In this document: positions 16,071 to 40,426 of the stretch, piece after piece
How the letters are laid out: every line of letters starts with the position of its first letter
How positions within the stretch are numbered: position 1 is the first letter of the stretch
NCBI GenBank assembly: GCA_913061235.1
Contig: CAJXTB010000011.1
Location: forward strand, 62,001-126,000
Direction: 5' to 3'
From: an uncultured Pseudomonadota bacterium
Lineage (GTDB): Bacteria; Myxococcota_A; UBA796; GCA-2862545
Length of the DNA stretch: 64,000 nt
Program-made: the position numbers and the translations under genes
Notes under the pieces: generated by a model
What the model saw: only the letters and a program-made list of their open reading frames with translations
Database searches by the model: none
Told to the model about the DNA's origin: nothing

Positions 16071-17438
16071 CTACCACGTGGGTAGTGTGCCGGTCTTGGC
16101 TACCTCGGCGAAGAATCGAAAGCTGTCTTTCGGGCGCCGCTCGCCGGTCTCAAAGTCCACCCAGGTCAGCCCAAACCGCTTCTCATAGCCCTCAGCCCAC
16201 TCGAAATTGTCCAGCAGTGACCATGCGAAGTAGCCGGTGAGTGGGATGCCGTCGGTCACGCAGCGCAGGCACGCCCGCAAGTGACTGTCGAAATAGGAAA
16301 CGCGCCTTGCATCTTTGACCCGTCCGTCGTCGTCGGGTTCGGTGCTGTACGCACAGCCGTTCTCGGTCACGACCAAGTCGCCAGAGTCGTAGTCGTGGTG
16401 CAGGCGAGCCATGATGTCGTAGAGGCCGTCGGGCCAGACCTCCCAGCCAAAGTCGGTACAACGCTCGGGAGGGGGCACGGCCTGTGTGCGCGGGGCGTTG
16501 TCAGCCTCGTCGACCTTGTCGCTGCGAATGATGGCGCGGGAGTAGTAGTTGATGCCGAGAAAGTCGGTGTCGACGGCGATGGTCTCTAGGTCGCCGTCGT
16601 GAACAAAATCCAAGCCTTTCGGTAGGTGTCCCTCGTCTTCATAGTGAGCGACTTGATCGGCCGGGTAGCCGCGCTTGTGCAGTGGGTCGAGGTACCAACG
16701 GTTGAAGAAGCCGTCGAACTGCTGACACGCGATGCGGTCGGCTTCCGACCCCGATGCGGGGATGCCTGGGGTCAGGTTGAGGGTGATGCCGACTTGGCTG
16801 TCGGCACTGTTGGCCCGAATGACGGGGACGGCCTTCCCGTGAGACAGCAGGATGTGGTGTGCGGCTTTCAGGGCGGCGTTGGGGTCCTTGATGCCTGGCG
16901 CGTGTTCACCATTCCAGTAGCCAAGTGTGGCCACAACCCAGGGTTCGTTGTGGGTGATCCAGTGTTTGACCCGGTCACCGAGATGCCGGGACATGACGTC
17001 GGCAAAATGAACGAAGGGGTCGATGATGCCGCGGGACGGCCAGCCTCCGGCGTCTTGTAGCGCTTGTGGAAGGTCCCAATGGTACAGGGTGACCCACGGC
17101 GTGATTCCCGCTTCGAGCAGTCCGTCCACAATGCGGTCGTAGAAGGCCAGTCCTTTGGCGTTGGGCGTAGCCTCGCTGCCTGTGGGCAAGATGCGCGGCC
17201 AAGCAATCGATAGTCGGTATGCGTCTACGTTGAGTTTCTGGAGCAGGGCAATGTCTTCGGCAAAGCGGTGGTAGTGGTCGCAGGCGATGTCCCCGTTGTC
17301 TCCACCTTTGACCTTGCCGGGGGTGTGGCTGAATCGGTCCCAGATGCTCTCGCCACGTCCGTCTACGTCAACGGCGCCTTCGATCTGGTAGCTACTGGTT
17401 GCTGAGCCAAAGACGAAGCCCGGTGGAAAGCTGTTCAT
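16071..17438 (-). CDS. GH1 beta-glucosidase
   Basis: Retaining beta-glycosidase of family GH1, 455 residues, cytoplasmic (no signal). It releases glucose from the non-reducing end of imported beta-gluco-oligosaccharides. Seen: the N-terminal GH1 signature FVFGSATSSYQIEGA, the acid/base Glu in THNEPW at about residue 165, and the nucleophile Glu in VTENGCAY at about residue 360, followed by the usual GYFAWSLLDNFEWAEGY. It is the last gene of the glucan operon and overlaps the ATPase gene by 4 bp (ATGA), which points to translational coupling. The product glucose could feed glycogen synthesis via the neighbouring glgC-glgA after phosphorylation. Confidence 0.95.
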   Translation of the reverse strand: MNSFPPGFVFGSATSSYQIEGAVDVDGRGESIWDRFSHTPGKVKGGDNGDIACDHYHRFAEDIALLQKLNVDAYRLSIAWPRILPTGSEATPNAKGLAFYDRIVDGLLEAGITPWVTLYHWDLPQALQDAGGWPSRGIIDPFVHFADVMSRHLGDRVKHWITHNEPWVVATLGYWNGEHAPGIKDPNAALKAAHHILLSHGKAVPVIRANSADSQVGITLNLTPGIPASGSEADRIACQQFDGFFNRWYLDPLHKRGYPADQVAHYEDEGHLPKGLDFVHDGDLETIAVDTDFLGINYYSRAIIRSDKVDEADNAPRTQAVPPPERCTDFGWEVWPDGLYDIMARLHHDYDSGDLVVTENGCAYSTEPDDDGRVKDARRVSYFDSHLRACLRCVTDGIPLTGYFAWSLLDNFEWAEGYEKRFGLTWVDFETGERRPKDSFRFFAEVAKTGTLPTW

Positions 17439-18421
17439 TGATTAGAGTTCCTTTGCATTGAAGCGGAGAGGGCGTGGCACCGTACGAGGTGTCCGGGAGC
17501 CAAGACATGCTCCGGTAGGGGAGTCACACACGCCTCGTGAACGACTAGACACCGTTCGGCGAATGGGCAGCCAGGCGGCGGGTCAACATTGGGCGGGAGC
17601 CCAGGGCGTGCTGGGAGTTCCGCATCCAGGGTGCCTCCTGGCTTAGGGGCAGCGGCAACTAGAAGCTGGCTGTACGGATGGCGCGGATGTTTTGCCAGCT
17701 CGTCTGCCGGAGCAACTTCCATCAGTTTGCCGGCGTACAGCACGGCGATGTGGTCAGCCAGGTAGCGTGCGGCTGCAAGATCATGTGTGATGAGTACAAT
17801 GGCTACGCCGCGTTCGTGCCGCAGGCGTTCGAGCAGTCGCAGGACATCCATGCGAATGGAGACGTCGAGCATGGAGGTGGGCTCGTCAGCCACCAGCAGG
17901 TCGGGGTCAGGCGCCAACGCTCGGGCGATAGCGACGCGCTGCCGCTGACCGCCCGACAGGTCTTGGGGAAGCTTGTCGATGTACGCATCTGCAGGACGCA
18001 GTCCAACTTGGTCGAGCAGCTCCAGCACCCGCGCGCGGCGCTGTGCCTTTGGCACAATGTGGTGTACCGCCAACGGTCGTTCGACGTGATGTCCGACGGT
18101 GTGCACCGGATTGAGCGAGCCAAAGGGGTCCTGAAATACCATCTGAACGCGCTTGCGGTAGGCCTTGGAGGCACGTCTCTCGCGCTTGAGAACGTCGTCG
18201 CCGTCCAGCAGAATCTTGCCAGCAGTCGGCTGGAGAAGTCGCAGCAGCATCTTGGCAAAGGTCGATTTTCCGCTTCCCGATTCGCCGACGATTGCCATAA
18301 TCTCGCCGCGGTCGACGGTCAGCGTCAGCCCGCTCAGCGCGTGCAGCTTCTTGGGTCGCAGGCCGCCACCGGTGTCAAAGGTCACCGACAAGTCGGAGAC
18401 ATGCAGCAGGGGAGGACTCAT
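17435..18421 (-). CDS. Oligopeptide/oligosaccharide ABC transporter ATP-binding protein (OppF/DppF type)
   Basis: The second ATPase of a five-part importer, 328 residues from ATG 18421. That start overlaps the preceding stop by 4 bp (ATGA), so the longer frame to 18448 is not used. Walker A GESGSGKST, signature LSGGQRQRVAIARAL, Walker B LLVADEPTS and a switch His (LITHDL) are intact. The C-terminal Opp/HPY extension carries the family Cys pattern (CPFAERCLVVHEAC). It couples ATP hydrolysis to uptake with the partner at 18418. In Opp/Dpp-type systems linked to glycosidases the cargo is often cello- or laminari-oligosaccharides rather than peptides; that is the inference here. Confidence 0.93.
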   Translation of the reverse strand: MSPPLLHVSDLSVTFDTGGGLRPKKLHALSGLTLTVDRGEIMAIVGESGSGKSTFAKMLLRLLQPTAGKILLDGDDVLKRERRASKAYRKRVQMVFQDPFGSLNPVHTVGHHVERPLAVHHIVPKAQRRARVLELLDQVGLRPADAYIDKLPQDLSGGQRQRVAIARALAPDPDLLVADEPTSMLDVSIRMDVLRLLERLRHERGVAIVLITHDLAAARYLADHIAVLYAGKLMEVAPADELAKHPRHPYSQLLVAAAPKPGGTLDAELPARPGLPPNVDPPPGCPFAERCLVVHEACVTPLPEHVLAPGHLVRCHALSASMQRNSNQ

Positions 18422-19392
18422 GCGTCGGTTCCTGTGACAATCGGACAAGCGACGGTGTGGTTCGGCGCGCAGCGTGTGAGCGCCGGTACGTCGACTGAAC
18501 AGCTGGCAATGGCGTGGTCACAGCGAGGGTGAAAGCGGCAGCCAGACGGAGGGGCAGCGATGTTGGCGGCGTTCCCGCGAATGGAGGTGGGAATACGGTC
18601 TTCGCCGATGGCGGGGGGAATCGCGCCGAACAGTCCGTGCGTGTACGGATGCATCCCGCCGCCGCGAAATGCGGCCACGGGGGCGATTTCGGTCATCCGT
18701 CCGGCATACATGACGCCGATACGAGTGGCGAGCTCCATCAGCAGGGCCAGGTCGTGGGTGATGAATAGCATGGCAAAACCAAGGCGTTCCTGCAGCTCAC
18801 GGACCCGTCGCAAGATGCTGCGTTCAACCACTACATCGAGTGCTGTTGTGGGTTCGTCCATTACAATTAGCGGTGGCTCAAACAACAGAGCCAGCGCCAA
18901 GGCCACTCGCTGACGCATGCCACCGGACAGCTCATGGGGGTAGCTGGCCAAGTGTACAGGGTCAATGTCCACCATGCGGAGGAGCTCGGCGCCACGCCGC
19001 TCAGCGACGTCCCGCGAAAACTCGCCGTGGGCCACCAGGGTGTCGCGAACATGCGCCCGAATGGTCAGGACGGGATTGAGTGCGTTCAGAGCACTCTGGG
19101 GGACAATGGAAGCTGTCTTCCAGCGGAGCTTGCGCAGGCCTTCGTCGTGCATTGCCAGTAGGTCGTGTCCGTCGAGCATCACCGAGCCGCCGAGCACTGC
19201 ACCCGGAGCGGCCAACGTACGCAACAATCCGTATACGAGGGTAGACTTGCCGCAGCCGGACTCCCCACACAGGCCGAGGGTCTCGCCGCGATTCAGGGTG
19301 AACGAGATGTCTTCGACGGCGCGAATGACGCTGCCATCCCCCTGGACATAGCCAACGGAGAGGTCTTGTACGACAAGGAGGGGCTCAGCCAT
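18418..19392 (-). CDS. Oligopeptide/oligosaccharide ABC transporter ATP-binding protein (OppD/DppD type)
   Basis: First ATPase of the importer, 324 residues. Walker A GESGCGKST, signature LSGGMRQRVALALAL, Walker B LIVMDEPTT and LFITHDLALL are intact. The C-terminal extension has the CRFHPRCDHAIASC pattern typical of the Opp/Dpp group. Its start overlaps the permease gene by 8 bp, and its stop overlaps the second ATPase by 4 bp. A heterodimer with the 17435 product is expected. Confidence 0.93.
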   Translation of the reverse strand: MAEPLLVVQDLSVGYVQGDGSVIRAVEDISFTLNRGETLGLCGESGCGKSTLVYGLLRTLAAPGAVLGGSVMLDGHDLLAMHDEGLRKLRWKTASIVPQSALNALNPVLTIRAHVRDTLVAHGEFSRDVAERRGAELLRMVDIDPVHLASYPHELSGGMRQRVALALALLFEPPLIVMDEPTTALDVVVERSILRRVRELQERLGFAMLFITHDLALLMELATRIGVMYAGRMTEIAPVAAFRGGGMHPYTHGLFGAIPPAIGEDRIPTSIRGNAANIAAPPSGCRFHPRCDHAIASCSVDVPALTRCAPNHTVACPIVTGTDA

Positions 19393-20272
19393 TGGAGCTC
19401 CGCAGCACTGGTGTAGGGCCTGGTGGTTGCCCCGGCTTTCCTACAGCGCGTTGGGCGGTCAAGCGGGGGTTCGTGACCTCATCAATGCCGAAGTTCACTA
19501 GGGTCAGGCCGAACCCGACCAGAGCCACACCAAGGCCGGTGGGTGCGAAGGTCCACCAGCTTCCTGTCAGCAAGGCCGCATCATTGCTCGCCCAATACAG
19601 GTTCGTTCCCCAGGTGACGGCGGAGACGTCTCCTAGGCCCAGAAACTCCAGGCCGACCTGGGCACCAATCGCGTACACCGTGGCCCCAATGAAGCTGCTG
19701 ACCAGCAATGATGCGAGGTTCGGAAGAATCTCGACCGCGACAATTCGGAGGGAGCTTTCACCAGTGACGCGAGCGGCGGCCACAAAATCTCGCTTGGCGA
19801 TAGACAAGACCTGGGCGCGAATGACCCGAGCCTGCCACGCCCAACCGGTGAGGGACAGCACCGCGAACATGGTCAGCGGACCCGGCGGAAGCCATGCGGC
19901 AATGACCACCATGAGCGGTAGTCCCGGCAGGACCAAGAACACGTTGATGAGGAGGGAGAGGCCGTCATCCCAGCGCCCACCGAGGTAGCCTGCTGCACCT
20001 CCCGCCAGCGCGCCGAGACCGACGACGGCAATGCCGGTGGCGACGGCTACTGTGAGCGTCAGACGAGCGCCGACCACGGTCTGTGCGAGCACATCTTGTC
20101 CTTGGCCTGTGGTTCCAAGCCAGTGGTCCCAGTTTGGCGGCAGAAGAGGACGCGCGAGGAACGCGGTAGGGTCTTGGACAAGGAAGGGGCCGATGAGCGC
20201 TGTGAGCGCAATCGCGCACACCACGACGAGCCCAGCCAGGGCCTTCTTATTGGTCAGGAAACCGCGAATCAT
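19385..20272 (-). CDS. ABC transporter permease (OppC/DppC type)
   Basis: Inner-membrane permease of 295 residues with an N-terminal membrane helix (KALAGLVVVCAIALTALIGP) and five further hydrophobic segments. The coupling (EAA) loop lies near residues 160-180 (KRDFVAAARVTGESSLRIV). The pattern NWDHWLGTTGQGQDVLAQ before helix 2 is the family landmark. It pairs with the OppB-type permease at 20269, with which it shares a 4-bp ATGA overlap. Confidence 0.92.
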   Translation of the reverse strand: MIRGFLTNKKALAGLVVVCAIALTALIGPFLVQDPTAFLARPLLPPNWDHWLGTTGQGQDVLAQTVVGARLTLTVAVATGIAVVGLGALAGGAAGYLGGRWDDGLSLLINVFLVLPGLPLMVVIAAWLPPGPLTMFAVLSLTGWAWQARVIRAQVLSIAKRDFVAAARVTGESSLRIVAVEILPNLASLLVSSFIGATVYAIGAQVGLEFLGLGDVSAVTWGTNLYWASNDAALLTGSWWTFAPTGLGVALVGFGLTLVNFGIDEVTNPRLTAQRAVGKPGQPPGPTPVLRSSNG

Positions 20273-21243
20273 CGGGTCCTCGGGTCGAGCAGAGCCGTGA
20301 GTAGGTCAACCAGCCAGTTGGCACCGAGAACGGCGAAGGTAATGGTCAGAAAGATCCCCTGCATGAGTGGGTAATCCTGGCCGCGAACCGCTTGAATCAG
20401 CAGGTAGCCTTGCCCTGGATAGCTAAACACAATCTCGGTGAGCAGGGCGCCCGACAGCACAAAGCCCAGCGCCATGCCGAAGCCGGCCACATTGGGAAGA
20501 AGGGCGTTTCGTGCAGCGTAGTGGACGAGGATGCGGCGCTTGGACAGGCCGCGGGCTTGGGCGTAGTTGACGAAGTCTTCTCCCAGGGTGCCGAGCATGA
20601 CGTTTCGCATGGACAATAACCAGCCACCGAGGGCCACAACGACCATGGTCAGCGCCGGCAGAAAGGCGTGCTTGAGGACGCTGCCGAAGAAGGCGAGGTG
20701 AAAACCGGGCTCAATGTCGAGACCGTAGGCATGGCGGACGGGGAACCAGCCGAGCTCAAAGCCGAAGAGCCAGGCTGCAGCCATGGCCAACCAGAAGTAC
20801 GGAAAGGCGCCAATGAACGACAAGATGGGCGGCGCCAAACTGTCCAGGAATCCGCCACGCCACCAGGCGGATAGCGCGCCCAGGGTGCTGCCGATGACGA
20901 AGGCCAAAACCACCGCGATTCCTGCGAGAAATACGGTCCACATCAGCCCGGACCCGATGACTTCGGAAACGGGGGCGGGAAAGTAGACCACCGAGGTACC
21001 GAAATCGCCTTGTGCGACGTGTGCTAGGTAGGAAAAATATTGCTGCCACAGGGGGGCATCTGTCAGGCCGAAGGTCTCGCGCAGAGCGTCGATGGCTTCG
21101 GGGTCTAGCTCACCTTGAAACCGGGCGAACATCACGCTTGCAGGGTCGCCAGGCATCAGACGCGGAACCAAGAAGTTTAGCGTCAGCGCCACCCAAGCGG
21201 CGAGTGCATAGAACCCGGCACGTCGCAGTAGGTATCGCGTCAC
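20269..21243 (-). CDS. ABC transporter permease (OppB/DppB type)
   Basis: Inner-membrane permease of 324 residues. I choose the GTG at 21243 because it overlaps the preceding stop (GTGA) and begins the family N-terminus TRYLLRRAGFYALAAWVALT; the open frame runs on to 21672 inside the binding-protein gene and is not real there. Family landmarks: LNFLVPRLMPGDPAS after helix 1, the EAA loop at EDFVNYAQARGLSKRRILV, and the late FSYPGQGYLLIQAV. It forms the channel with the OppC-type partner. Confidence 0.92.
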   Translation of the reverse strand: MTRYLLRRAGFYALAAWVALTLNFLVPRLMPGDPASVMFARFQGELDPEAIDALRETFGLTDAPLWQQYFSYLAHVAQGDFGTSVVYFPAPVSEVIGSGLMWTVFLAGIAVVLAFVIGSTLGALSAWWRGGFLDSLAPPILSFIGAFPYFWLAMAAAWLFGFELGWFPVRHAYGLDIEPGFHLAFFGSVLKHAFLPALTMVVVALGGWLLSMRNVMLGTLGEDFVNYAQARGLSKRRILVHYAARNALLPNVAGFGMALGFVLSGALLTEIVFSYPGQGYLLIQAVRGQDYPLMQGIFLTITFAVLGANWLVDLLTALLDPRTR

Positions 21244-22886
21244 TGGGTCGCCACTCGGTTCTCTCGCGGCATGATCCGAGTCATCACGAGTAGTGGGTCT
21301 GGTGTGAGGTTTGGGGACAACCTGGCATAGGGGTTGTCGGCACTCGGCCAGCCAACGAAGCGGGTCGTGTTGTACTCTCCCCAGCTCGGGTTTGGAAAAA
21401 GCGGAAGAGCTGGTGCTTCGGTCACAAAGCGCATCTGTAGGGCGTTGATGGCCTGATGCTGCAGTGCTTCTTCCGTGGCGTCTTCGAAGGCGGCGAGCAG
21501 GGCGTCTGCATTGGGGTCTGGGTAGCGGTGCCAGTTGCGAATCGCAGGCTCGCCGACTGGCTCGACGGCTTTGGCGGACAGCAGACCCTTGTATAGACCA
21601 TACGGTGTGGAGCCTTCTTCGGACCAGGCAATGGAGAGGTCGAAATCGCCGCGTCCGAGGCTGTCGAACCACGCCGAGAAGTCTCGGCTCTTGACGTTGC
21701 AGCGTACCCCTACCGCCTCAAGATTGCGCGAGGCGACTTGTGCTGCACGGACCCAGTCGCTCCAGCCGGATACCACAGATAACGACAGCTCTAGCGGCTC
21801 GCCGGCTGAGTTGTAGCGCACGCCGTCGTCTCGGAGGGTCCATCCGGCAGCGTCGAGCGCGGCTGCAGCGCCCTCGGGATTGTAGGTCATCCACTCGGCC
21901 CCGATGGCCTCAGCAGCTGGGTCTCGCCAGTCGGCGTAGCTGTCCGACATGCCAGTGGGATTTGCGGGTTGGGTGTAGCCATACATGGCCACATTCACAA
22001 TGAGCTCACGGTCCAAGGCCATGGACAGCGCCTTGCGGACGTCCGCGTTGTCCAGCGGGGGCTTGGTGGTGTTGGGGTAGAGAAACACCATGCCGCCTGT
22101 CTGGGGGAACCAGTATTTGTGATGCTCGGGGTCTCGCCCCACATACACTCGCTCGATGGCGGGTATAAACGTGCCCGCCCAGTCGACTTCACCCTGGACG
22201 ATGGACCATGCTGCCTGCTCGTTACTTCCCACTGCGGGAAAGCGAAGCGCGTCTACGTGTGGCAAGCCTTCCTGCCAGTAGTTGGGGTTCTTGCCCAGCT
22301 CAAAGACCTGTGAACGGAACACGTTGATTTCGGTGAAGGGGCCTGTTGCCACGGGGTCTGGGTTGGCCCAGGTGCTCGGGTCTTCGACCTGACTCCAGAT
22401 GTGTTCGGGGACGATCGGCTGGTGGGCGATGTCCGCTAGACCAGGGCTGTAGCGACGTTGAAAGCTGACGACCACCGTGTCGGCGTCAGGCGCCTCGACC
22501 GACTCGACGAAGCCCCACAAACCACCAAGGTCCAGGCTGGAGTTGTCTCGCAGCAGGTGGAAGGTGGCTACGACATCGTCGGCAGCGAAGGTCTCCCCGT
22601 CGGACCACAGGACGTCGTCGCGTAGATCGAAGGTGAGTGCCATGCCGTCGTCGGACCAGGACCACGCCTCAGCGAGCCAGGGCGTCCACTCGCCGGTAGC
22701 ACCGTTGAAGATGAGCAAGGGCTCGTAGATTCCACTGCGTGTTGGCCAGCGGGTGCCTCCTGTGGTGAGCAGGGGATTGAAGTTGCGAATCCACGTCGCT
22801 TGCTGTTCTTGCAGCACGGTGACGACACCGGGGTCGGCCTTTGGGGCCGGTGCGCAGCCCAGCAGGGTGAAGAGCAGTGGAAACAC
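21240..22886 (-). CDS. Family 5 extracellular solute-binding lipoprotein
   Basis: Substrate receptor of the ABC importer, 548 residues, starting at GTG 22886 (2 bp after the GH16 stop). A very short lipoprotein signal MFPLLFTLLGC anchors it. Family 5 (SBP_bac_5) features: LAEAWSWSDDGMALTFDLRD, VLWSDGETFAADDV and a DVRKALSMALDRELI block near residue 280. The opening QQATWIRNFNPLL is a pattern shared with sugar-binding members of this family such as the cellobiose-binding proteins. Given GH16 and GH1 genes in the same operon, a beta-gluco-oligosaccharide ligand is more likely than a peptide; the ligand is inferred. Confidence 0.88.
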   Translation of the reverse strand: MFPLLFTLLGCAPAPKADPGVVTVLQEQQATWIRNFNPLLTTGGTRWPTRSGIYEPLLIFNGATGEWTPWLAEAWSWSDDGMALTFDLRDDVLWSDGETFAADDVVATFHLLRDNSSLDLGGLWGFVESVEAPDADTVVVSFQRRYSPGLADIAHQPIVPEHIWSQVEDPSTWANPDPVATGPFTEINVFRSQVFELGKNPNYWQEGLPHVDALRFPAVGSNEQAAWSIVQGEVDWAGTFIPAIERVYVGRDPEHHKYWFPQTGGMVFLYPNTTKPPLDNADVRKALSMALDRELIVNVAMYGYTQPANPTGMSDSYADWRDPAAEAIGAEWMTYNPEGAAAALDAAGWTLRDDGVRYNSAGEPLELSLSVVSGWSDWVRAAQVASRNLEAVGVRCNVKSRDFSAWFDSLGRGDFDLSIAWSEEGSTPYGLYKGLLSAKAVEPVGEPAIRNWHRYPDPNADALLAAFEDATEEALQHQAINALQMRFVTEAPALPLFPNPSWGEYNTTRFVGWPSADNPYARLSPNLTPDPLLVMTRIMPRENRVATQ

Positions 22887-22888
22887 GC

Positions 22889-23695
22889 CTACTCCGTAGC
22901 TACAAGCGGGGTTGTTCTCTGATATACGCGCACGTAGTCTACACCCATGACTGCGGGAAATACGGTGGTGTCATCGGGATCACCGAGGAAGTTGCCGCCC
23001 ACCGCGACATTCAAGATCAGGAAGAAGTCGTGGTCAAACACCCAAGTGCCAGGCACGTCGCCGGGGTTGACGGTGTGCACGAGCTGGTCGTCGAAAAACC
23101 AGGTGATGTGGTCGGGGTCCCACTCAATCGCGTAGGTGTGGAATTCGTTGGTGACTGGTTCGTCCAGGACAATCTCACCACCGATGCTGTTGCCACCGGC
23201 ATACCCGGGGCCGTGTACCGTTCCGAGAACACGGTTGGGTTGTTGCCCGCGAAGCTCTAGAATGTCAATCTCACCACACGCGGGCCAGCTCACTTCGCTG
23301 ATGTCGCTGCCGAGCATCCAGAAGGCTGGCCAGATGCCTTGGCCGTCTGGCAGGCGGATTCTGGCTTCGATGCGGCCGTAGGTGGTTGCGAAGAGCCCTT
23401 GGGTCTTTATGCGACCGGACGTGTAGGCATTGTCTTGAAAGGCTTCTTCACGCGCCGTTATGCGCAAGAACCCGTTGCCGTCTAGGTCCACGTTGTTGGT
23501 GCGGTCGGTATTGAACTCGAGTTGGTCGTTGCCCCAGCCGTCGCCGCCGACGTCATACGTCCAGCGAGAGGCGTCCGGTGCCGTTCCAGCGGGGCCGTCG
23601 AACGCATCTTCCCAGACCAGGGTCCAGGGCTCGGGCTCGGACGTTCCGCCGCACGCGGTACACAGCGCGATGAGGGTACAGACAACGGTACGCAT
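22889..23695 (-). CDS. GH16 endo-beta-glucanase (laminarinase-like) lipoprotein
   Basis: Secreted endo-glycosidase of family GH16, 268 residues from ATG 23695 (a GTG at 23701 is the alternative). The signal ends in a lipobox-like CTACGG, so it is probably anchored in a membrane or on the surface. The catalytic block is GEIDILELRG with nucleophile Glu142, Asp144 and acid/base Glu147; the extra residue in ExDxxE is typical of the laminarinase branch. Upstream GRIEARIRLPDGQGIWPAFW and downstream FHTYAIEWDPDHITWFFDD are family motifs. It cuts internal beta-1,3 or mixed beta-1,3/1,4 bonds and would supply oligosaccharides to the ABC importer. Confidence 0.93.
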   Translation of the reverse strand: MRTVVCTLIALCTACGGTSEPEPWTLVWEDAFDGPAGTAPDASRWTYDVGGDGWGNDQLEFNTDRTNNVDLDGNGFLRITAREEAFQDNAYTSGRIKTQGLFATTYGRIEARIRLPDGQGIWPAFWMLGSDISEVSWPACGEIDILELRGQQPNRVLGTVHGPGYAGGNSIGGEIVLDEPVTNEFHTYAIEWDPDHITWFFDDQLVHTVNPGDVPGTWVFDHDFFLILNVAVGGNFLGDPDDTTVFPAVMGVDYVRVYQRTTPLVATE

Positions 23696-23697
23696 GG

Positions 23698-24318
23698 TCA
23701 CTCCTGGTTCAGGTAGACATCGTCGACAAGAAGGCTCGCGCCTCCGCCGACGCCGTCCGCCAATAGGATGAGGGCAACACCGACTTGGGTGATGTCTACA
23801 CCGTTAAAATCGCCCAGCGGAATGGTCACGTCGTGCCAGTCGCCGTCTGCGACAAATCCGTAATCCGACGCATTGACGCTGACTTCAACCTCCCCGCCGT
23901 TCATCCCGATGGTCAGGGCGTTGTAGTCGGTATTGTCCGACTGTAGCGCCAGGTGCATGGTGGTCCAGTCGGACAGGTCGTTCGGACTGTCCCAATGGAT
24001 TCCGCCACCGATCCAGCCCACATTGCTCGCCACGATTTCGTCCGCCGATAGGCCTTCGACGCGGTCGGTCGACAGGTTCACTAAGAAGGTGCTGGAGTAC
24101 ACGTAGAAGTGGTTGACGACGTCGTCAATCACGACCGTCTCTGTGGCTCCGCCCTCGTAGAATGCCCCTAGGCTCAAGCGAGGTTGACCTTCCCAGGGGG
24201 TTGAGCCGTCGAAGAAGTCATCTCCGACGTCCACGAATATGGGCCGGTCTGGGTAGACGGCGACACCGGGGTCGTCACGACAGGCTCCTAGTGCCATCAG
24301 CAGGATGAGTCCTCGCAT
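23698..24318 (-). CDS. Lipoprotein with carbohydrate-binding-module-like beta-sandwich
   Basis: A 206-residue lipoprotein (MRGLILLMALGAC, lipid Cys13). The mature part reads as one jelly-roll: TETVVIDDVVNHFYVYSS, DWTTMHLALQSD, DWHDVTIPLGDF and a final ASLLVDDVYLNQE, a pattern seen in CBM11-like and related glucan-binding modules. It precedes the GH16 gene by 2 bp, so a role in holding glucan near the enzyme is likely but inferred. Confidence 0.65.
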   Translation of the reverse strand: MRGLILLMALGACRDDPGVAVYPDRPIFVDVGDDFFDGSTPWEGQPRLSLGAFYEGGATETVVIDDVVNHFYVYSSTFLVNLSTDRVEGLSADEIVASNVGWIGGGIHWDSPNDLSDWTTMHLALQSDNTDYNALTIGMNGGEVEVSVNASDYGFVADGDWHDVTIPLGDFNGVDITQVGVALILLADGVGGGASLLVDDVYLNQE

Positions 24319-24321
24319 GGT

Positions 24322-24870
24322 TCAGCCTCCCTGGGCGACAGCGCCGCCGTCTTCGGTTGGGATGAAAATCCAGCCGCCCTGGACGTCTCCACCTAGTGCC
24401 TCGATGCCCAAGTAGGCCTGGGGGGCGAGGTCGAAGATCAGCCGTCCGTCCGCGCTGTACGTCACGGCTCCTGGGAAGACATCCAGCACATTTTGGTAGC
24501 CGCGAATCGCAATGTCTCGTACGAATACAAGGTCTTCGGGGTGGGCTAGCCCTGCGTCGTACATCGCATGTGCATTGGCCGCTGCGTAGAACTGGTGCTC
24601 GCCGGTGGGCTCTCCAACAAGTGCGGTGGACCACCCGTAGAAGGCGGCAATGGGGCCATCTTGGGCAACGTCGAACTTGGTGCTGGCGCTAATTCCTTGG
24701 GAGAACGGGTTGTTTGGGTCGTTCATAACGGACGTGTCCGGATGCACTCCCATGTCTCGGCTGTACAGCTCGAACTCCAATGGGCCCAACGACTCGCCGT
24801 AGACAAAGTCAGGCGCTTCTACGCAGCCGACGGCGAGCATCGCCACAATGAACAGTCGTGGTGTGTTCAT
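24322..24870 (-). CDS. Lipoprotein of the glucan operon, unknown function
   Basis: A 182-residue lipoprotein (FIVAMLAVGC lipobox). The mature protein has no domain I recognise; it contains NPFSQGISASTKFDV, an Ala/Tyr-rich helix (QFYAAANAHAMYDAGLA) and a Gly-rich end. The start overlaps the glycosidase/beta-barrel gene by 4 bp (ATGA), so it is translated with it. It may be an accessory part of an outer-membrane complex with that protein; this is inference. Confidence 0.65.
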   Translation of the reverse strand: MNTPRLFIVAMLAVGCVEAPDFVYGESLGPLEFELYSRDMGVHPDTSVMNDPNNPFSQGISASTKFDVAQDGPIAAFYGWSTALVGEPTGEHQFYAAANAHAMYDAGLAHPEDLVFVRDIAIRGYQNVLDVFPGAVTYSADGRLIFDLAPQAYLGIEALGGDVQGGWIFIPTEDGGAVAQGG

Positions 24871-27800
24871 AGGGACACCCTCACGTAGGTTCGCAGTTCA
24901 AGTTCACTGCCCCAAGTATCGGTTGGCGGTGGCTCAGGTGAGTTTTCATCTGTCGCGCGTGCCTTGACTGACAGGCCGAAGCGCGTGCCGTTTCCGAGCA
25001 GACTTGGGCGGCCTAGACCGCCAGAGAAGTCGGTGATGAGTTGGACAGGGAAGGTCAGGTTGTAGTCACGATGGAAGTCGTACGGACCCCAGTCGTTGAC
25101 TTTGACGGTGGTGTCGAGCAACCACGGGCCACGATAAACGCGGACAGTAGCGCCGGTACGGGTGAGTAGGCGGTCGCTGATGCCGGTGGATTGGGCCTGT
25201 CCGACGTACACATTCGTGATGACTCGGTCTTTGCCATTGGCGAAGACCATGCGGCTTGAGAGCTGCCATTCGTCGCGAGCTTGTGGACTGCCTGGGAAGG
25301 CGAACAGGAAGCCTTCTTCGGTAAAGCCAAAGTTGGCGTCACGCACGGTGGGTTGGTGGCGGTAGACAAAGTCGAGGCTGGCGGCGAAGCTTGCATCCTC
25401 CCTGTAGTCTGAGTCCCACAGCCAGAACCACGAGCCTGGTGTGGGGTCGTAGACAATGAGCATTTCGCCGGCGATTGTCTCGCGGTTGTCTAGAACGGCG
25501 AAGGGGTCGTCGCGGAAGTTGCGGGCCCGTACTTGGGGTGAATACCAGCGACTTCCTGGCTCGTAGCCGTCTGCAATCGGTGTATTGGGGCCGACGAGGG
25601 GACGCTGCGCCATGAAGCGGGGAGCGATGGAGAACGCGCCCACGTTGTACCGGGCGCCAGCCGCGGCACTCATCACGTTTCCGCGACCCGATGGCTTGAG
25701 TGTCCAGCCGGTCAGCGTGATGGGCGCGTCATAGCCACCGTCGGCGACGAGCCCCTTCACAGCGGCTTCGGTACTCCAGGACAGGGCGGGGCCGTCGATG
25801 GTCAAGCGAGCCCGGCCGCCAAAAGTATCCGCAATGCCGATCTGGTCTCGTAGGACGTCGAATCCGCTGTCCTGGTAGCTGTCTTCAGCGTCTGTTTCCC
25901 GCTCGTATAGGAACTCTTGGCCAATCTTGTTGGACCCCGAGAACAAGCCGCCGGCCTCGAGGGTGGTCACGCCCTTGCGCCAGGCAACAGACAGCCCTGT
26001 ACGCCGGGTGAGCTGCTCGGACACCGCTACCGTAGACGCGATGTTCGGCAGGGGCGCAATGTCTTCATGGTGAACCAAGGTTGCGGTGATGTGGTTACCA
26101 AAGCGGCGCTGGAACTTGCCGATGACTAGTGGGTTCGCCCCCCACCAGACCTGTGGACCGAAGGCGATGTCGATGCCTTTCAGGTCGCCCTTGCCGGAGA
26201 GGGTGACACCGATGGGCGCGTCCGCGTTGTAGGTGTCGACGGAGGGGCCGTAGTTGGCTTCTTGGTACAGGCCAAAGAAGTCGCCTTCGTTGCCCCAGTG
26301 GTAGTGGCCGGTGCGGAAGTACGCGTGGGCGTCGAAGGCCTTTCCGGTCCATTCGACCTCCGCTTGGTACAGCCGCACACGGTCCAGGGATACTGGATCG
26401 ACGGTCTCTTCGGCGGGATCGACGTCAACACGCCGGCCACGGTTTTCGTAGAAGATGGTGTCAATGCGGTTGCTCGCCACATTGCCAAGGACATTGACTG
26501 TTGCCCACGCGTCTAGGTTGTCGGTCGGGCGTACGCCGAGGCCCAAGTAGGCCGACTGGGTATGGTCGAAGGTAGTGTTGAGCGGTCCACGGCCTACAAC
26601 CTCGCTTCCACCGGATACGGTTGCAGAGAGGTCAATGCGCGCGGTGTGTACGTAGGCACGCTGTTGTCGGACACGCGAGGCGGCGCTGACTGCGGCAACA
26701 TTGGGTGTGTAAGTCGCCGCGTTGAACTGACCGAACCAGCGGCGAATGGCAGCATCGTCTGAGTTCGGGTCGTAGGGGTCTAGCTTCCACGCGTCTTGCA
26801 GCAGGTAGTACGACTCGCGAGGCTGGATTTCGTACAGGCCGGAGGGGTCGGGTGCTGTCTTGGCGGTGATGCCGAACCATTCCTCGTTCATGTTGTTTTG
26901 ACCGGGGACATGGTCGGCTGGGTAGCCATTATTTTCCCATGATGCGTTGGTGTCGTGGACCTCTAAGTTCTCTTCTTGTTTGTACTTCCACCAGCCGTCA
27001 GACCACTGAAAGACGTAGCCTCCAATCGCGTTGCCGACGCCGTGTCCAGCCGCATTCAGGTACAGGTCTTCCCACTGCCGCCGCAGGTATTCGCCTTGCG
27101 CGACCCCGTCTTCGCGGCCCCGTGCGGCGTCGTAGGCATCCGCGCCAAACTCGGTGTACAGAACCGGGACGCCTAGGCTGTCTTCAACGACTTGGTACAG
27201 GTCGCGTGCACTGTACCCACGGTAGACATTGGTGCCGAAAATATCCAGGTTCGGTGCGAGTTCTGCGACCAGGTCGATGTATTGAACGTCTCCATTGCAG
27301 ATGGCAACGGGGTGATGGGTGTCCATGGCGTGAATGGCGTCCACCGCCTCGCCCCACAGACTGTACAAGGGCCTGGCGCGGGCCTCGTCGCGTCCGCCTG
27401 CCGGTAGGTCTTCAATCTCGAAGCTGGTCCAGGCCAAGCCGTAGTTGTTCTCGTTACCGAGCAGGAACAGGGACACGCCTCGCACGTCCTTGTAGGTCTC
27501 GACCACGGCGAGGGTCTCGTCAAGGATGGCTTGGCGGGTCTTGGGGTCGCTGTAGTCAGTGTTCGGCGTCCACCGTCCCTCTACCTGCAGGCCATAGCGG
27601 CCGAAGGTGGGGTTGATCATCGTGGTGATGCCGTATTCATCGTAGATGTACTCGACCCACTTGGCGGGGATGCCGGGGTACTGGCGAATCGAGTTGGCAC
27701 CCATGCCGGCGAGCAGCGGCATCTCTTGTGCGAGCACTGTTTGGATGAAGGCGTCGTCTTCATTCCATAGTGAGTAGCCATAGTTTGTGCCGATTGGGAC

Positions 27801-27940
27801 GTAGCCCCAGTTCATGCCGTACAACAGGGTCGGCTCGCCTTCTACGCGCAGCACCATGCCACCGTCTTGTTCGGCGACGTCTACGTGAAGGGGTTCGGCC
27901 CACGCGGCGGTCACAAGCCATGAAGCGAGAATGAGAAGGG

Positions 27941-27944
<4 letters not shown>
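24867..27944 (-). CDS. Clan GH-A (GH2-like) glycosidase fused to outer-membrane beta-barrel
   Basis: A 1025-residue two-part protein. ATG 27944 overlaps the previous stop (ATGA) and gives a Sec signal ending TAAWA. Residues about 18-400 form a TIM-barrel glycosidase of GH2 character: LYGMNWGYVP at the start, acid/base Glu165 in LLGNENN, and nucleophile Glu265 in LYTEFGADA. From about residue 430 to the end the sequence alternates amphipathic strands with polar turns (YLGLGVRPTDNLDAWATVNV; FSIAPRFMAQRPLVG; WLLDTTVKVNDWGP), ending in ELRTYVRVSL, as in outer-membrane beta-barrels. It may bind or trim glucan at the cell surface and give a pore for oligosaccharides. The exact GH family is uncertain. 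Confidence 0.8.
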
Positions 27945-29299
<1,355 letters not shown>

Positions 29300-29307
29300 T
29301 GGGGACC

Positions 29308-30591
29308 TCACTTTGCTACAGCGACGAACGCTGCGAGTTTTGGATCAGACTCGGTAAACAGCGTGGGTGTGTCCAGCGCATGTTTGAGAACGAGAGTGGC
29401 GGCGCCGCGAGCGAACGGCTCGTTGTCGAGCAACGACAGGACGATTTCGGCATGTTCAATCGACGAAGACAGGGCCCGACTCGACGCCGCTGCACGTACG
29501 GCGGCGACGAGCGGTTCTCCGGCTTCGGTCACCCGTCCACCGAGAATGACTCGGCTTGGATTGAGTAGATTTAGGAGGTTTGCGATGGCAATGCCTAGGT
29601 AGCGGCCGACCTCGTCGATGACGGCCAATGCAACCGGATCATGCTGACGTGCTGCCGCCACGACATCCGCCAGCGTGGGATTTGCGACAGGACTTAGGCA
29701 GCTTGTTTGTCCTGTTGCGAGTGCATGGCGGACGCGGTCAACGATGGACTGTGAGCCGACCTCGGCTTCGAGGCATCCGAGCATTCCGCAGCGACAGAGG
29801 CGGCCGTTTGGGTCCACCGTCGTATGGCCGATTTCGCCTGCCATGCCTGAAGAACCACCGAAGATCTCGCCGTCGACGACGATCCCGGCACCCACGCCTG
29901 TGGCGATCTTGACGAACACCAGGGACTCTTGGTCCTTGCCGGCGCCCCACCAGGCCTCTGCGAGCGCACCGAGGTTGGCGTCATTGTCGATTAACAGAGG
30001 AACGTTGAGCTGGGCGTGGAGCTCGCGTCCAATGTCTACTTGGCTCCATGCGGGGAGAATCCTCTCCGACAGACGACCGGGCTGATTCTGGTCGAGGGGA
30101 CAGGGCACGCCCACCCCCACTCCGAGGAGCGAATCCACGGGAACGTCCGCAGCACCGCACAAAGACCTCACGTCTTGAATGACGCGGGCCATCGTTGATT
30201 CGGGGTCCACTTGGACGGCCTCATCACTGCGTCGCGTGCCGAGCACGCACCCTCGTAGATCCATGAGTACTGTAGAGACGTGCGAACAGCCGATTTCGAC
30301 ACCGGCAATCAGCTGACGCTTGTGGTTGAACTGCAGCACCATCGGCGGCCTGCCGCTCCGGTGCCGTTCGATGTGAGACTCGAGGACAAGGCCACAATCC
30401 ACAAGATCGGCGACGATGGCCGAGACGGTCGACCGAGACAAACCAGAGAGTCGCGCCAAGTCGGCGCGCGACACACCCGATGGGTCGTCCCACAACATCC
30501 GCAGCAACATGCCAGCGTTGTGCTGACGGACCTGAGCCCCGCCAGCACCCTGGCCTGCTGCATTTTGTTCGGCCTGTGGATAAATGAACAT
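29308..30591 (-). CDS. ROK-family transcriptional regulator
   Basis: A 427-residue repressor of the NagC/XylR/Mlc type. The N-terminal winged helix (about residues 40-75) includes SRADLARLSGLSRSTVSAIV. The ROK sugar-kinase-like domain follows, with LLIDNDANLGALAEAWWG, the GIVVDGEIFGGSSGMAGEIGH block and the zinc-binding CRCGMLGCLE. As the second gene of the operon it probably controls the operon itself, released by a sugar such as glucose or a gluco-oligosaccharide; effector inferred. A palindrome at 31333-31351 near the promoter is a candidate operator. It starts 6 bp after the upstream lipoprotein stop. Confidence 0.92.
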   Translation of the reverse strand: MFIYPQAEQNAAGQGAGGAQVRQHNAGMLLRMLWDDPSGVSRADLARLSGLSRSTVSAIVADLVDCGLVLESHIERHRSGRPPMVLQFNHKRQLIAGVEIGCSHVSTVLMDLRGCVLGTRRSDEAVQVDPESTMARVIQDVRSLCGAADVPVDSLLGVGVGVPCPLDQNQPGRLSERILPAWSQVDIGRELHAQLNVPLLIDNDANLGALAEAWWGAGKDQESLVFVKIATGVGAGIVVDGEIFGGSSGMAGEIGHTTVDPNGRLCRCGMLGCLEAEVGSQSIVDRVRHALATGQTSCLSPVANPTLADVVAAARQHDPVALAVIDEVGRYLGIAIANLLNLLNPSRVILGGRVTEAGEPLVAAVRAAASSRALSSSIEHAEIVLSLLDNEPFARGAATLVLKHALDTPTLFTESDPKLAAFVAVAK

Positions 30592-30597
30592 GGGTTC

Positions 30598-31308
30598 CTA
30601 GCGAGTGACGCATGCGTCCGGGGATTCGAAGAACTCGATGTCATCGAAGTACACCGCGCCGTCGGACGCGCATCCGCGGTCGCCGGGCGGGCACTCCCAC
30701 AGCTCAAGCGCCGGTTGGACGTTGACAAACCCAGTTGGTACTTCTCCAATCACGGTCAGCTGGGTCCACTCATCCTGGGTCGACGTTGACGTGACTCGGG
30801 TGGACTCTTGTGCCGAGAAGCCGCCGAAGTCTGCGGTGAAGAACTTGATGGATAGCCATGCATCCGTATTGTCCAGCGGTTCGGCGGACGGTGCGTAGAC
30901 CCAGCCGCGCATCGTGAAGCAGGTGCCTTCAGTGGATGTGATCTGCTGGTAGACCGGCGTTTCGCCTCCTGTTCCATCGGCGCGAGCAAACAAGCTGGCA
31001 GCGGCAGCTCCGGTTCGTGCAGTGGTTGTGATTTCGCGATTCGTTAGTTCACCTGGGAAGATAAACCAGTCTTGAAATCCTGGCGTGGCCTCAAATCCAG
31101 GGTTGGTCAGTAGGTTGGTCGGTGCCTCGGTGTCCACGTCAGTGTCCACGTCAGTGTCCATGTCAGTGTCCATGTCAGTATCGGCGTCAGTGTCGACGTC
31201 TGTGCCGGGGTCGAAGGTGTCCGTATCCATGTCGGTATCGTCGGTTTTATCTGTACATGCAGCGAAAGCGAGAGCTGCGATCATGCACAAGCGGAAGGGG
31301 TGACTCAT
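30598..31308 (-). CDS. First operon gene: carbohydrate-binding-like lipoprotein
   Basis: A 236-residue lipoprotein (ALAFAACT lipobox) with an Asp-Thr/Asp-Met linker to about residue 62. The mature domain has NPGFEATPGFQDWFIFPGEL, TPVYQQITSTEGTCFTMRGW, SIKFFTADFGG and YFDDIEFFESPDAC. These line up piece by piece with the C-terminal domain of the 27941 protein, so the two are paralogues flanking the ROK gene. The jelly-roll resembles CBM4/9. As first gene of the operon it may be the most abundant glucan binder; inference. Confidence 0.75.
   Translation of the reverse strand: MSHPFRLCMIAALAFAACTDKTDDTDMDTDTFDPGTDVDTDADTDMDTDMDTDVDTDVDTEAPTNLLTNPGFEATPGFQDWFIFPGELTNREITTTARTGAAAASLFARADGTGGETPVYQQITSTEGTCFTMRGWVYAPSAEPLDNTDAWLSIKFFTADFGGFSAQESTRVTSTSTQDEWTQLTVIGEVPTGFVNVQPALELWECPPGDRGCASDGAVYFDDIEFFESPDACVTR
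31130..31203 (-). repeat. 12-bp tandem repeat coding for the acidic linker
   Basis: Units of GTCCACGTCAGT and near copies (GTCCATGTCAGT) on the plus strand. They encode alternating Asp with Val, Met or Thr directly after the lipobox region of the first operon gene. Confidence 0.85.
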
Positions 31309-31425: not shown

Positions 31426-32838
31426 CTATTTCGCTGCCGCAATTTCCGAGTAGATAGCTGCATACTCAGCAGAAGAGGCTTGCCAGCTCACAGACTGGCT
31501 CATGGCGTTCAGCTGCATGCGGCGCCAGATCGCGGGGCGTGAGAACTGGTCGCACATGTGGCTCAACATGCCGCAGAGTGCCTCGGAATCGATAGGATTA
31601 AACTGGAATCCAGTGCTGATTCCTGCCCTTAGTCCGGCTGCGTTGGCATGCACGATGGTGTCGGCGAGGCCGCCGGTCAGGGCGACCAAAGGCAGCGTGC
31701 CGAAGCGTAGTCCATACAGCTGCGTCAGGCCGCAGGGCTCAAAGCGGGACGGAACCAAGATCACGTCTGCCCCGGCCAGGTAGCGTCGTGCTCGGGGCTC
31801 GTCGTAGCCGATGTGAACGGAGACGCTGCTGTGTCGCGCTGCACGGCGAAATGCAGCCTCCAGCGCGCGATCGCCGTTTCCGAGGATGGCGATTTGTCCG
31901 CCATGGCGCAGAAGGGTCGGGAGGGCTTGTAGGAGCAGGTCCATGCCCTTTTGTTCGGAGAAGCGCGAAATGACGACGCAGAGCGGGCCGTCGGCCTCAG
32001 GCAGTCCGACCTCTTTACGCAGTGCTGCCTTGTGGGACGCCTTGTCTGCCGGGTCTGTGTACGGCGGCTGCCACGCGTCGGTGTCGATACCGTTGAGGAT
32101 TCCGGTGAACACATCACGACGTTGGTGGAGCACACCCTGCATGCCCCGGCCAAACTCGGGACGCATGAGCTCTTGGGCGTACGTGGGGCTGACTGTGCTG
32201 ATGCGGTCGGAGAACACCAAGCCTGCCTTGAGCGAGCTGATGTGGCCGTAGTACTCAAAGCCGTCCATCGTGAAGTCTTCGCCGCGCAGTCGCAGCCAGA
32301 ACAGCTCTTGTCCACCCACAACGCCCTGAAACGCGATGTTGTGAATCGTGAAGAGCGTGCCCACGCGTGACGCTCCGCCCATCTGGCGCAGGTAGACGGG
32401 GGCAAAGCCGGTCTGCCAGTCGTGAAGGTGCAGGACCTGCGGCGACCAGCCGTCGAGGCCGTGTGTACCAATGAGCGCTGCGACCCAAGACAAGGCGGCG
32501 AATCGCGAGGCGTTGTCTCCCCAGTCCGAGCCGTTGGTGTTGTGGTACGGATTGCCGGGGCGGTCGTACAAGTGGGGGGCTTCGAGCACCAATAGTGGGT
32601 GTCCGTCGACCTGTCCGCTGCGTATGCGCGCGGTGCCCCCAAAGATATCGGTCAGCGTTGCACGAATCGGTGCATCGTGACCGATAGCGTGCATGACCGC
32701 CGGATACCCAGGAACCAACGTGTGCATGTCGACATCATGCGTTGCGAGCGCCGCGGGTAGGGCGCCAACGACGTCTGCTAGGCCTCCGGTCTTGACGAGT
32801 GGAAAGCACTCCGAGGCCACCGATAGGACGCGGGTCAC
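31426..32838 (-). CDS. glgA: Glycogen synthase (ADP-glucose)
   Basis: Adds glucose from ADP-glucose to the alpha-1,4 chain of glycogen; a GT5 enzyme of 470 residues, normal length. Seen: the N-terminal substrate loop [13 protein letters not shown], the [12 protein letters not shown] and TIHNIAFQG blocks, [14 protein letters not shown], and the C-terminal catalytic [14 protein letters not shown]. The start overlaps glgC by 4 bp, so the two are translated together. It stands directly upstream of the glucan operon on the same strand, with about 117 bp between, which links glucan uptake to storage. Confidence 0.97.
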
Positions 32839-34100
32839 AGGCTCTCCGCACGCAGGTTCAGCATCTTCTGGGTGATGAGGGTGATGCCGCCCGGACTGAC
32901 TCGGAACCAGCGTCTGTCTTCGATGGGGTCTTCGCCAACGACCAGTCCTTCGGGAATGTGGACGCCGCGGTCAATGACCACATTCTGTAGGCGGGCAGAG
33001 CGCGCCACGTTCACGTAAGGCAGCACCACCGCACGGGTGAGGGACGAGTATGAGTTGGTGTGTACCTGCGTAAACAGCAGTGATTCACGGATCTTACTGC
33101 CCGAGATTATGCATCCACCGGCAATCAGGGACTGGATGGCATGACCCCGGCGGTCTTCGTCATCGTGGACGAACTTCGCGGGAGGGACGGACTCGGCGTA
33201 CGTCCAGATGGGCCAGTCGCGGTCCCACAGGTCGAGCTCAGGAACCATGGCTGTCAGGTCGATATTCGCCTGCCAGAAGGCATCGACCGTTCCGACGTCT
33301 CGCCAGTAGACCGGTGAGTGTTCGTCGTGCCGCACACAGCTCTGGTCGAAGCGGTGGGCCACGGCCTTTCCGTGCTTGACGACGTACGGAATCAGGTCTG
33401 CGCCAAAGTCATGGGAGGTGTCTTTGAGGTCGTGGTCGCGCAGAAGCAGGTCGCGCAGGAAGGTCCACTTGAAGACGTAGATACCCATGGATGCCAAGGT
33501 GCGGTCGGGATCGCCAGGCATGCCGGGTGGGTTGTCAGGCTTCTCCAAGAAGTGGGTGATTACGTCGTTATCGTCGACGTCCATCACCCCAAACGCTTTG
33601 GCGTCTTCACGCGGAACCGTCAGGCAGCCCACGGTCACATCGGCATCTTGGTCGACATGCTGGCGCAGCATCAGCTCGTAGTCCATCTTGTAGATGTGGT
33701 CGCCGGCGAGGATCAGCACGTAGTCGACGTCGTAGCTGTCGACGATGTCGATGTTCTGATAGACGGCGTCTGCCGTGCCTAAGTACCACTGGGTGCCACC
33801 TCCGCGTTGAGAGGCAGGCAAGATGTCTAGGTACTCGTTGCGTTCTGCGCGAAAGAAGGACCAGCCGCGCTGACAGTGACGAATCAGGCTGTGTGCCTTG
33901 TATTGGGTCGCAATCGCCATCTTCCGAATGCCTGAGTTCAGGGCATTCGACAGGGCAAAGTCGATGATTCGCGACTTGCCTCCAAAGTAGACGGCCGGCT
34001 TCGCGCGGTTGTCCGTCAACTCTTTGAGTCGACTGCCCCGTCCTCCGGCAAGTACGAAGGCCATGGTGCGGCTGGCGAGCTGGGTGGCGGAGCGGGTCAT
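32835..34100 (-). CDS. glgC: Glucose-1-phosphate adenylyltransferase (ADP-glucose pyrophosphorylase)
   Basis: Makes ADP-glucose from glucose-1-phosphate and ATP, the committed step of bacterial glycogen synthesis. Length 421 residues, as usual. Seen: the nucleotide-binding [13 protein letters not shown] with [19 protein letters not shown], the [10 protein letters not shown] metal/substrate site, and FLEKP. The C-terminal half is the left-handed beta-helix. Start at 34100; MAFVLAGG at residue 13 is a possible shorter start. Usually allosterically controlled by glycolytic intermediates. Confidence 0.97.
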
Positions 34101-34817: not shown

Positions 34818-35182
34818 TGCTCGCGCTCCTGGCCGTAGCGCCGTGCCTCATCAATGACTGTACACTCAATCCACTCGGCCAGTAGATCACGTTCTACCTG
34901 TGTTGTTCCCCCACCAGGGGGCATGGTCGGTACGTCTGGTGTGGCCTCTTCGTGAATCTCCAGCACCCACTCCAAGACTCCGACATAGCTGTCGAGATTA
35001 ACGACCTCTGGGGCGTCGTTTCGCTGACTCGACGGGATGTTCGTGCTGTGGCATCCCGTGCAATACTGCTCGACAAGACCACGACCGAAGTTGTCGTAGG
35101 TCAGGTCGTTTGGACAGGGGTCCACTTCGTCTGCCGCACAGGCAGCGACGAGCAGTCCAGCAATGGGGAGCAATCGGTTCAC
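34814..35182 (-). CDS. Small mono-haem c-type cytochrome lipoprotein
   Basis: A 122-residue lipoprotein with one haem site CTGCHSTN at about residue 41 and a later Met in PTMPPGGG that suits the axial ligand. It begins with GTG at 35182, sharing one base with the DUF1501 stop (TAGTG). The lipobox is LLVAAC. The fold matches the short planctomycete-type cytochromes that accompany DUF1501/DUF1549 proteins. Electron partner unknown. Confidence 0.8.
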   Translation of the reverse strand: MNRLLPIAGLLVAACAADEVDPCPNDLTYDNFGRGLVEQYCTGCHSTNIPSSQRNDAPEVVNLDSYVGVLEWVLEIHEEATPDVPTMPPGGGTTQVERDLLAEWIECTVIDEARRYGQEREQ

Positions 35183-36471: not shown

Positions 36472-36480
36472 GATGGCCTC

Positions 36481-40379: not shown

Positions 40380-40426
40380 GCTGACGGGCTGGCGCTGTGT
40401 AGAATGCGCGCTACCGTTGACAGGTG

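Follow-up and report, generated by a model that had tools for sequence, protein, structure and literature searches.

Gram-negative bacteria must carry large glucans across the outer membrane, and the known solution of the Bacteroidota is the energised SusCD pair, in which SusC is a barrel of 22 strands with a TonB plug and a lipoprotein lid. Bacteroidota gene clusters that encode GH149 and other beta-1,3-glucan CAZymes and lack susCD have been noted, with the route by which the glucan crosses left unstated (PMC5827456). Among the enzymes described so far, BuGH158 (PDB 6PAL) carries an Ig-like domain as a partner, and its N136, E137 and E220 alanine mutants are inactive (PMC7157763). FbGH17b (FORMB_24740), found in the laminarin clusters of Formosa, is a fusion of an MFS transporter with a GH17 enzyme (PMC6246565), and two reports (PMC10971235, PMC11821767) describe GluM of Corallococcus, a myxobacterial glucanase, as an outer-membrane beta-barrel protein.

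The gene analysed here lies in a DNA stretch of 64,000 nucleotides (hereafter the window; all coordinates are positions in it), and its product is predicted to join a glycosidase to an outer-membrane barrel. The nearest concept is the Formosa fusion: in both cases, by prediction for the present protein, a laminarin-cutting enzyme and a transporter share one chain in a laminarin pathway, but FbGH17b combines an inner-membrane MFS protein with GH17, and in the present protein a GH157/158-like domain is joined to a barrel of the outer membrane. With BuGH158 and LaGH157 (PDB 9G4N) it shares the TIM-barrel fold (VIA Z 24.9–27.6), the aligned Asn-Glu acid/base and Glu nucleophile, and a beta-1,3-glucan gene context, although the partner of its enzyme is a barrel and not an Ig-like domain. 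Like SusC (with SusD), it places a large outer-membrane barrel within a glycan-use locus; unlike SusC, it has about 26 predicted strands, no plug or SusC model match, and a tethered enzyme. GluM (Li et al. 2019) is a possible relative; it is a smaller protein that is not known to have a separate TIM-barrel domain. Literature searches found no glycosidase-porin fusion of a comparable kind.

The fusion gene and its operon

The open reading frame on the minus strand is real. It encodes 1029 amino acids from a GTG codon, or 1025 from the in-frame ATG at 27944, the start given by the sequence-only reading; the ATG is the likelier start, because its ATGA overlaps the stop codon of the upstream gene. 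Pfam, NCBIfam and single-sequence PDB searches with the whole protein returned only sub-threshold GH2 and chance matches. That a clan GH-A enzyme and an outer-membrane barrel are combined in one chain, as the earlier reading proposed, is supported by fold searches, by two predicted structures and by the conservation of the sequence. The arrangement had also been called unusual, and this part did not stand, since the protein represents a conserved family of several phyla and is not rare.

The gene belongs to a tightly coupled operon on one strand (Table 1). Upstream of the fusion the operon encodes a ROK regulator and two D/T-linker lipoproteins; downstream come two small lipoproteins, a GH16 enzyme, all components of an Opp-type importer and a GH1 enzyme. 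Homology of the OppB-like frame begins at about residue 145, hence its true start is probably near 21246. The D/T-linker lipoproteins lie on either side of the ROK regulator, and their C-terminal domains look like paralogous surface domains. Among the scanned flanking genes of the window locus there was no susC-susD pair.

Table 1. Features of the fusion gene and of its operon, with window positions and the basis of each assignment.
Feature	Position	Strand	Basis
GH-A glycosidase / outer-membrane beta-barrel fusion (predicted)	24867..27956	minus	ORF and full-length homologues, 44–58% identity
Sec signal peptide, residues 1–20 (...LVTAAWA/EP)	27897..27956	minus	cleavage site by eye; helix 4–18 in model
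TIM-barrel catalytic domain, residues 24–423	26688..27887	minus	GH158 profile match, Foldseek, VIA-align
N168-E169, predicted acid/base and preceding Asn	27450..27455	minus	invariant 131/131; aligns with BuGH158 N136/E137
E269, predicted nucleophile	27150..27152	minus	invariant 131/131; aligns with BuGH158 E220
Outer-membrane beta-barrel, residues 434–1029, ~26 predicted strands	24870..26657	minus	AF2 and fold matches
C-terminal strand, beta-signal-like ending (GSELELRTYVRVSL)	24870..24911	minus	consensus across homologues
182-aa lipoprotein, cluster C11, directly downstream	24322..24870	minus	ATGA overlap with fusion; same position directly after the fusion at 12 of 81 loci in one set
206-aa lipoprotein, cluster C12, possible carbohydrate-binding jelly roll	23698..24318	minus	conserved position; one cluster member weakly matches PF18559
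GH16 beta-glucanase, EIDILE motif	22889..23701	minus	PF00722 E 6e-28
Family-5 solute-binding protein, OppA-like	21240..22886	minus	PF00496 E 4.5e-75
OppB-like permease (ORF as listed)	20269..21672	minus	PF00528 E 1.6e-38
OppC-like permease	19385..20272	minus	PF00528
Opp ATPase	18418..19392	minus	PF00005, PF08352
Opp ATPase	17435..18448	minus	PF00005, PF08352
GH1 beta-glucosidase	16071..17438	minus	PF00232 E 3.8e-162
Lipoprotein, D/T-rich linker, directly upstream	27941..29311	minus	ORF and sequence; overlaps fusion start
ROK-family transcriptional regulator, NagC/Mlc-like	29308..30591	minus	PF00480 E 3.6e-61; cut-off of the NagC model not reached (E 7e-64)
Second D/T-linker lipoprotein, paralogous C-terminal domain	30598..31308	minus	37% identity over 186 aa to the 27941..29311 lipoprotein

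The enzyme half

The AF2 model of the full chain (pLDDT 84.6, pTM 0.74, the latter below the 0.87 of the barrel modelled alone) contains a TIM barrel that matches the catalytic domains of GH157, GH158 and GH2 with Z of 25–28. In the model, the nearest fold is that of the endo-beta-1,3-glucanase families GH157 (VIA-align Z 27.6, rmsd 3.3, 319 residues) and GH158 (Z 27.1, rmsd 3.0, 291 residues), both equally near. Foldseek matched the model to 6pal (E 2.8e-13), and the family profile matched the solved GH158 enzymes 6pal (E 4.5e-8) and 9oro (E 8.5e-7), from which the fusion enzyme differs in that only about 18–22% of the aligned residues are identical.

N168, E169 and E269 are unchanged in all 131 distinct full-length homologues. 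N168-E169 comes after strand 161–166 of the model and E269 ends strand 265–270, which is the clan GH-A layout with Asn-Glu after strand 4 and the Glu nucleophile after strand 7; all three residues align with the catalytic residues of BuGH158 (chain numbering offset by 22). The motifs LLGNENN (N168/E169) and YTEFGADA (E269), picked out from the letters alone, are at these sites, and the distance from E169 to E269 is exactly 100 residues. Of the label "GH2-like" given with them, the catalytic Glu pair and the GH-A fold hold, but membership of GH2 proper was rejected: Pfam PF02836 (Glyco_hydro_2_C) scored 13.2 bits against a cut-off of 21, and the nearest structures are GH157 and GH158. Because of the fold, the invariant residues and their alignment with the catalytic residues of BuGH158, the enzyme half is very probably an active clan GH-A enzyme. 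Its substrate is likely a beta-glucan, whose linkage is suggested by the gene context. Members of the same family could include the "GH0" enzymes that PMC10108472 reports from laminarin clusters.

Residues 320–360 (window 26877–26999) are rich in Trp and Asn and strongly conserved (~0.77), yet the full-chain model has low confidence there. This stretch may become ordered only when it touches the barrel or a partner.

The barrel half and its topology

Residues 424–1029 modelled alone by AF2 gave a closed barrel of 26 strands (pLDDT 88.7, pTM 0.87), a count that could change if hairpin 681–705 lies outside the barrel wall. A predicted structure without closure, which the sequence-only reading had named as a refutation, was therefore not obtained. 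The amphipathic strands that the sequence-only reading saw in the last 600 or so residues correspond to these predicted strands, and their hydrophobic alternation was beaten by none of 5000 within-strand shuffles. As judged from predictions, the features of an outer-membrane barrel are all present: an even number of strands, closure, short periplasmic turns, a beta-signal and a signal peptide. The C-terminal consensus G-x-E-W-E-I-R-T-Y-x-x-x-x-hydrophobic is common to the homologues.

The barrel resembles in fold AlgE, OprD/Occ porins, Wzi and the FimD/PapC ushers (Z about 13–17). AlgE was the top match in VIA-align (Z 17.1, 270 residues), OprD-type porins scored about 16 and Wzi 14.9, and maltoporin was also matched; the ushers (Z ~13–14) aligned over 352–374 residues, that is, nearly the whole barrel. 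However, AlgE, the OprD/Occ porins, Wzi and the ushers have fewer strands and no fused glycosidase, and kinship in sequence to solved barrels was detected neither by the profile against PDB sequences nor by Pfam. LptD was absent from the VIA-align barrel matches, which excludes nothing. Identity as a TonB-dependent receptor or SusC was rejected, as the window protein had no TonB plug or TonB_dep_Rec match at E<=1 and its strand number differs. A classical (type Va) autotransporter was likewise rejected, with no Pfam autotransporter match and about 26 strands against a 12-strand domain.

Segments between strands average 18.8 amino acids on the side away from both termini and 5.6 on the near side (p = 7e-4). 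In known outer-membrane proteins the short turns are the periplasmic ones, and both termini, together with the N-terminal enzyme domain, are therefore predicted to be on the periplasmic side. The most conserved parts of the barrel include the outer loops 548–581, 603–609, 735–760 and 957–967 and the near-side segment 837–856, the last being a candidate docking site for the enzyme. Coevolution by MI-APC (131 sequences, effective ~50) showed an approximately threefold enrichment of adjacent strand pairs, with one pair linking strands 1 and 26 at rank 7; at this depth the signal was too weak for domain docking.

Distribution of the family

A protein search in 379 genomes of the Myxococcota phylum returned long full-length matches with 44–58% identity, and a scan of GTDB genomes found at least 529 relatives, the best 80 of which belong to Myxococcota, Bacteroidota, Gemmatimonadota, Krumholzibacteriota, Eisenbacteria, Zixibacteriota, Ignavibacteria and others. 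A profile of the barrel alone matched 33 of the 379 Myxococcota-phylum genomes, 59 of the 299 genomes from a flavobacterial family, and all 11 named genomes, with one copy in each of the latter; one copy per genome is usual. The plasmid collection held two long relatives, both from Bacteroidota, and the phages searched held none.

In the Myxococcota, flavobacterial-family and named genomes a barrel lacking the enzyme turned up only where a contig ended or the gene was broken: all candidates for a standalone barrel proved to be of these two kinds (e.g. genome G200, whose contig ends at 5354, and locus L143). Since the barrel otherwise always lies in a frame long enough for the enzyme, the fusion is an old and stable unit. 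At locus L143 (G450) the gene is split into frames of 300 and 765 aa and at L114 (G064) it is interrupted by a TAG, either as assembly errors or as pseudogenes. Some loci have a TIM-only relative of the enzyme domain adjoining the fusion, as at L150 (440-aa ORF) and L115 (G216:C389; partial match).

Gene neighbourhood and the SusCD question

The conserved neighbours of the fusion are beta-1,3-glucan genes, encoding GH16, GH149 phosphorylase, GH17, GH30, GH1 and Opp or MFS importers. In Bacteroidota loci the fusion is recurrently followed by a lipoprotein and GH16, often with GH149, GH17 and GH30; the neighbour of about 1147 aa is a GH149 beta-1,3-oligoglucan phosphorylase (6hq6, E 0). Within the Myxococcota, the fusion occurs in 10 of 11 GH149-positive genomes versus 23 of 368 without GH149 (Fisher p 6e-11). 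All 32 flavobacterial loci keep the order fusion-lipoprotein-GH16, and GH149 adjoins in 27 of them. Evidence that the lipoprotein of the Myxococcota (C12) is linked to that of the Bacteroidota (C0) is only suggestive (hhalign P 0.0027, probability 11%).

The sequence-only reading suggested that the barrel could replace a SusC-type receptor. In its favour, SusCD was not found within about 10 kb at 22 of the 32 flavobacterial loci, where the fusion-lipoprotein-GH16 core is nevertheless kept. However, SusC and/or SusD stand beside the fusion at the other 10, as they do at L102, a single locus in the first set; strict replacement is therefore unsupported, and at about a third of the flavobacterial loci import does not have to run through the fusion.

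A proposed role in beta-glucan uptake and its alternatives

The fusion and its conservation, the intact catalytic residues, the topology, the gene context and a barrel predicted to be closed were computed; a location in the membrane, a pore, its substrate and cutting during passage are what we infer. Other products of the operon serve the cell surface, with GH16 and the lipoproteins, the periplasm and inner membrane, with the solute-binding protein and the Opp importer, and the cytoplasm, with GH1; the step left over is passage of the outer membrane, which the barrel fits. We regard it as moderately probable that the fusion is a beta-glucan uptake protein, whose chain ties an endo-beta-1,3-glucanase-like domain to a large outer-membrane channel, at the mouth that faces the periplasm. 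The task of GH16 and the lipoproteins would be to open beta-1,3-glucan and hold it at the cell surface, and oligosaccharides would cross the barrel past its conserved, aromatic-rich outer loops. On emergence they would be cut by the tethered domain, which would prevent back-diffusion and size them for the inner-membrane importer (Opp-type in the window, MFS elsewhere), and cytoplasmic GH1 or GH149 would complete the breakdown. The earlier suggestion that the protein could both cut and admit oligosaccharides fits such a scheme as cutting at the inner mouth, given the predicted periplasmic position of the enzyme.

In classical autotransporters the passenger precedes the barrel, and here too the enzyme domain is N-terminal. 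The barrel might accordingly be a mere anchor that displays the glycosidase at the surface, autotransporter-like or GluM-like, for digesting glucan outside the cell during predation or grazing, with no import through the barrel; PMC10971235 and PMC11821767 report that myxobacteria use GluM, an outer-membrane beta-barrel beta-1,6-glucanase, against fungi. We consider this rather unlikely, as an anchor would need far less than some 26 strands whose outer loops are long and conserved, both termini are predicted to be periplasmic, no autotransporter family was matched, and importers are encoded in the same operon. A barrel serving only as a scaffold or general porin, with the real import through SusCD or TonB-dependent receptors encoded locally or elsewhere, would agree with the loci that have SusC and/or SusD beside the fusion (10 of 32 flavobacterial ones and L102), but the retention of the core at the 22 loci lacking SusCD makes such an accessory role quite improbable.

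Among the barrel folds nearest to it is that of an exporter, since AlgE is the top structural match, and this counts against uptake. A periplasmic hydrolase beside an export barrel is, moreover, a known arrangement (PMC9384988, PMC12022489), and the fusion could trim and secrete a self-made beta-glucan as PgaB/PgaA or PelA/PelB do for exopolysaccharides. Yet the neighbourhood is catabolic: the scanned neighbours include no polysaccharide synthase, and the conserved ones are GH16, GH149, GH17, GH30, GH1 and importers, so that we hold export to be highly improbable.

Extending the uptake role to the whole multi-phylum family, as one-chain beta-1,3-glucan channels with a glycosidase at the periplasmic mouth that work without TonB or SusCD in most bearers, is plausible but tentative. 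For the Myxococcota, the Bacteroidota and several phyla that are less studied, the family is a concrete candidate for the missing outer-membrane step. If the proposal is correct, the fusion would correspond, at the outer membrane, to the MFS-GH17 fusion, and a single gene is enough to test the question. A major flow of marine carbon passes through laminarin, and such an uptake route would for this reason be ecologically relevant.

Other genes of the window

Directly upstream of the glucan operon lie genes for a GlgA glycogen synthase and a GlgC-like nucleotidyl transferase (31426–34100, minus), an adjacency which suggests that imported glucose may feed storage. Farther along, a DUF1501 protein adjoins a PSCyt2-like lipoprotein (35182–38124, minus), and another lipoprotein (40424–42511, plus) combines MopE-type metal-binding motifs with PMP/right-handed-helix repeats.
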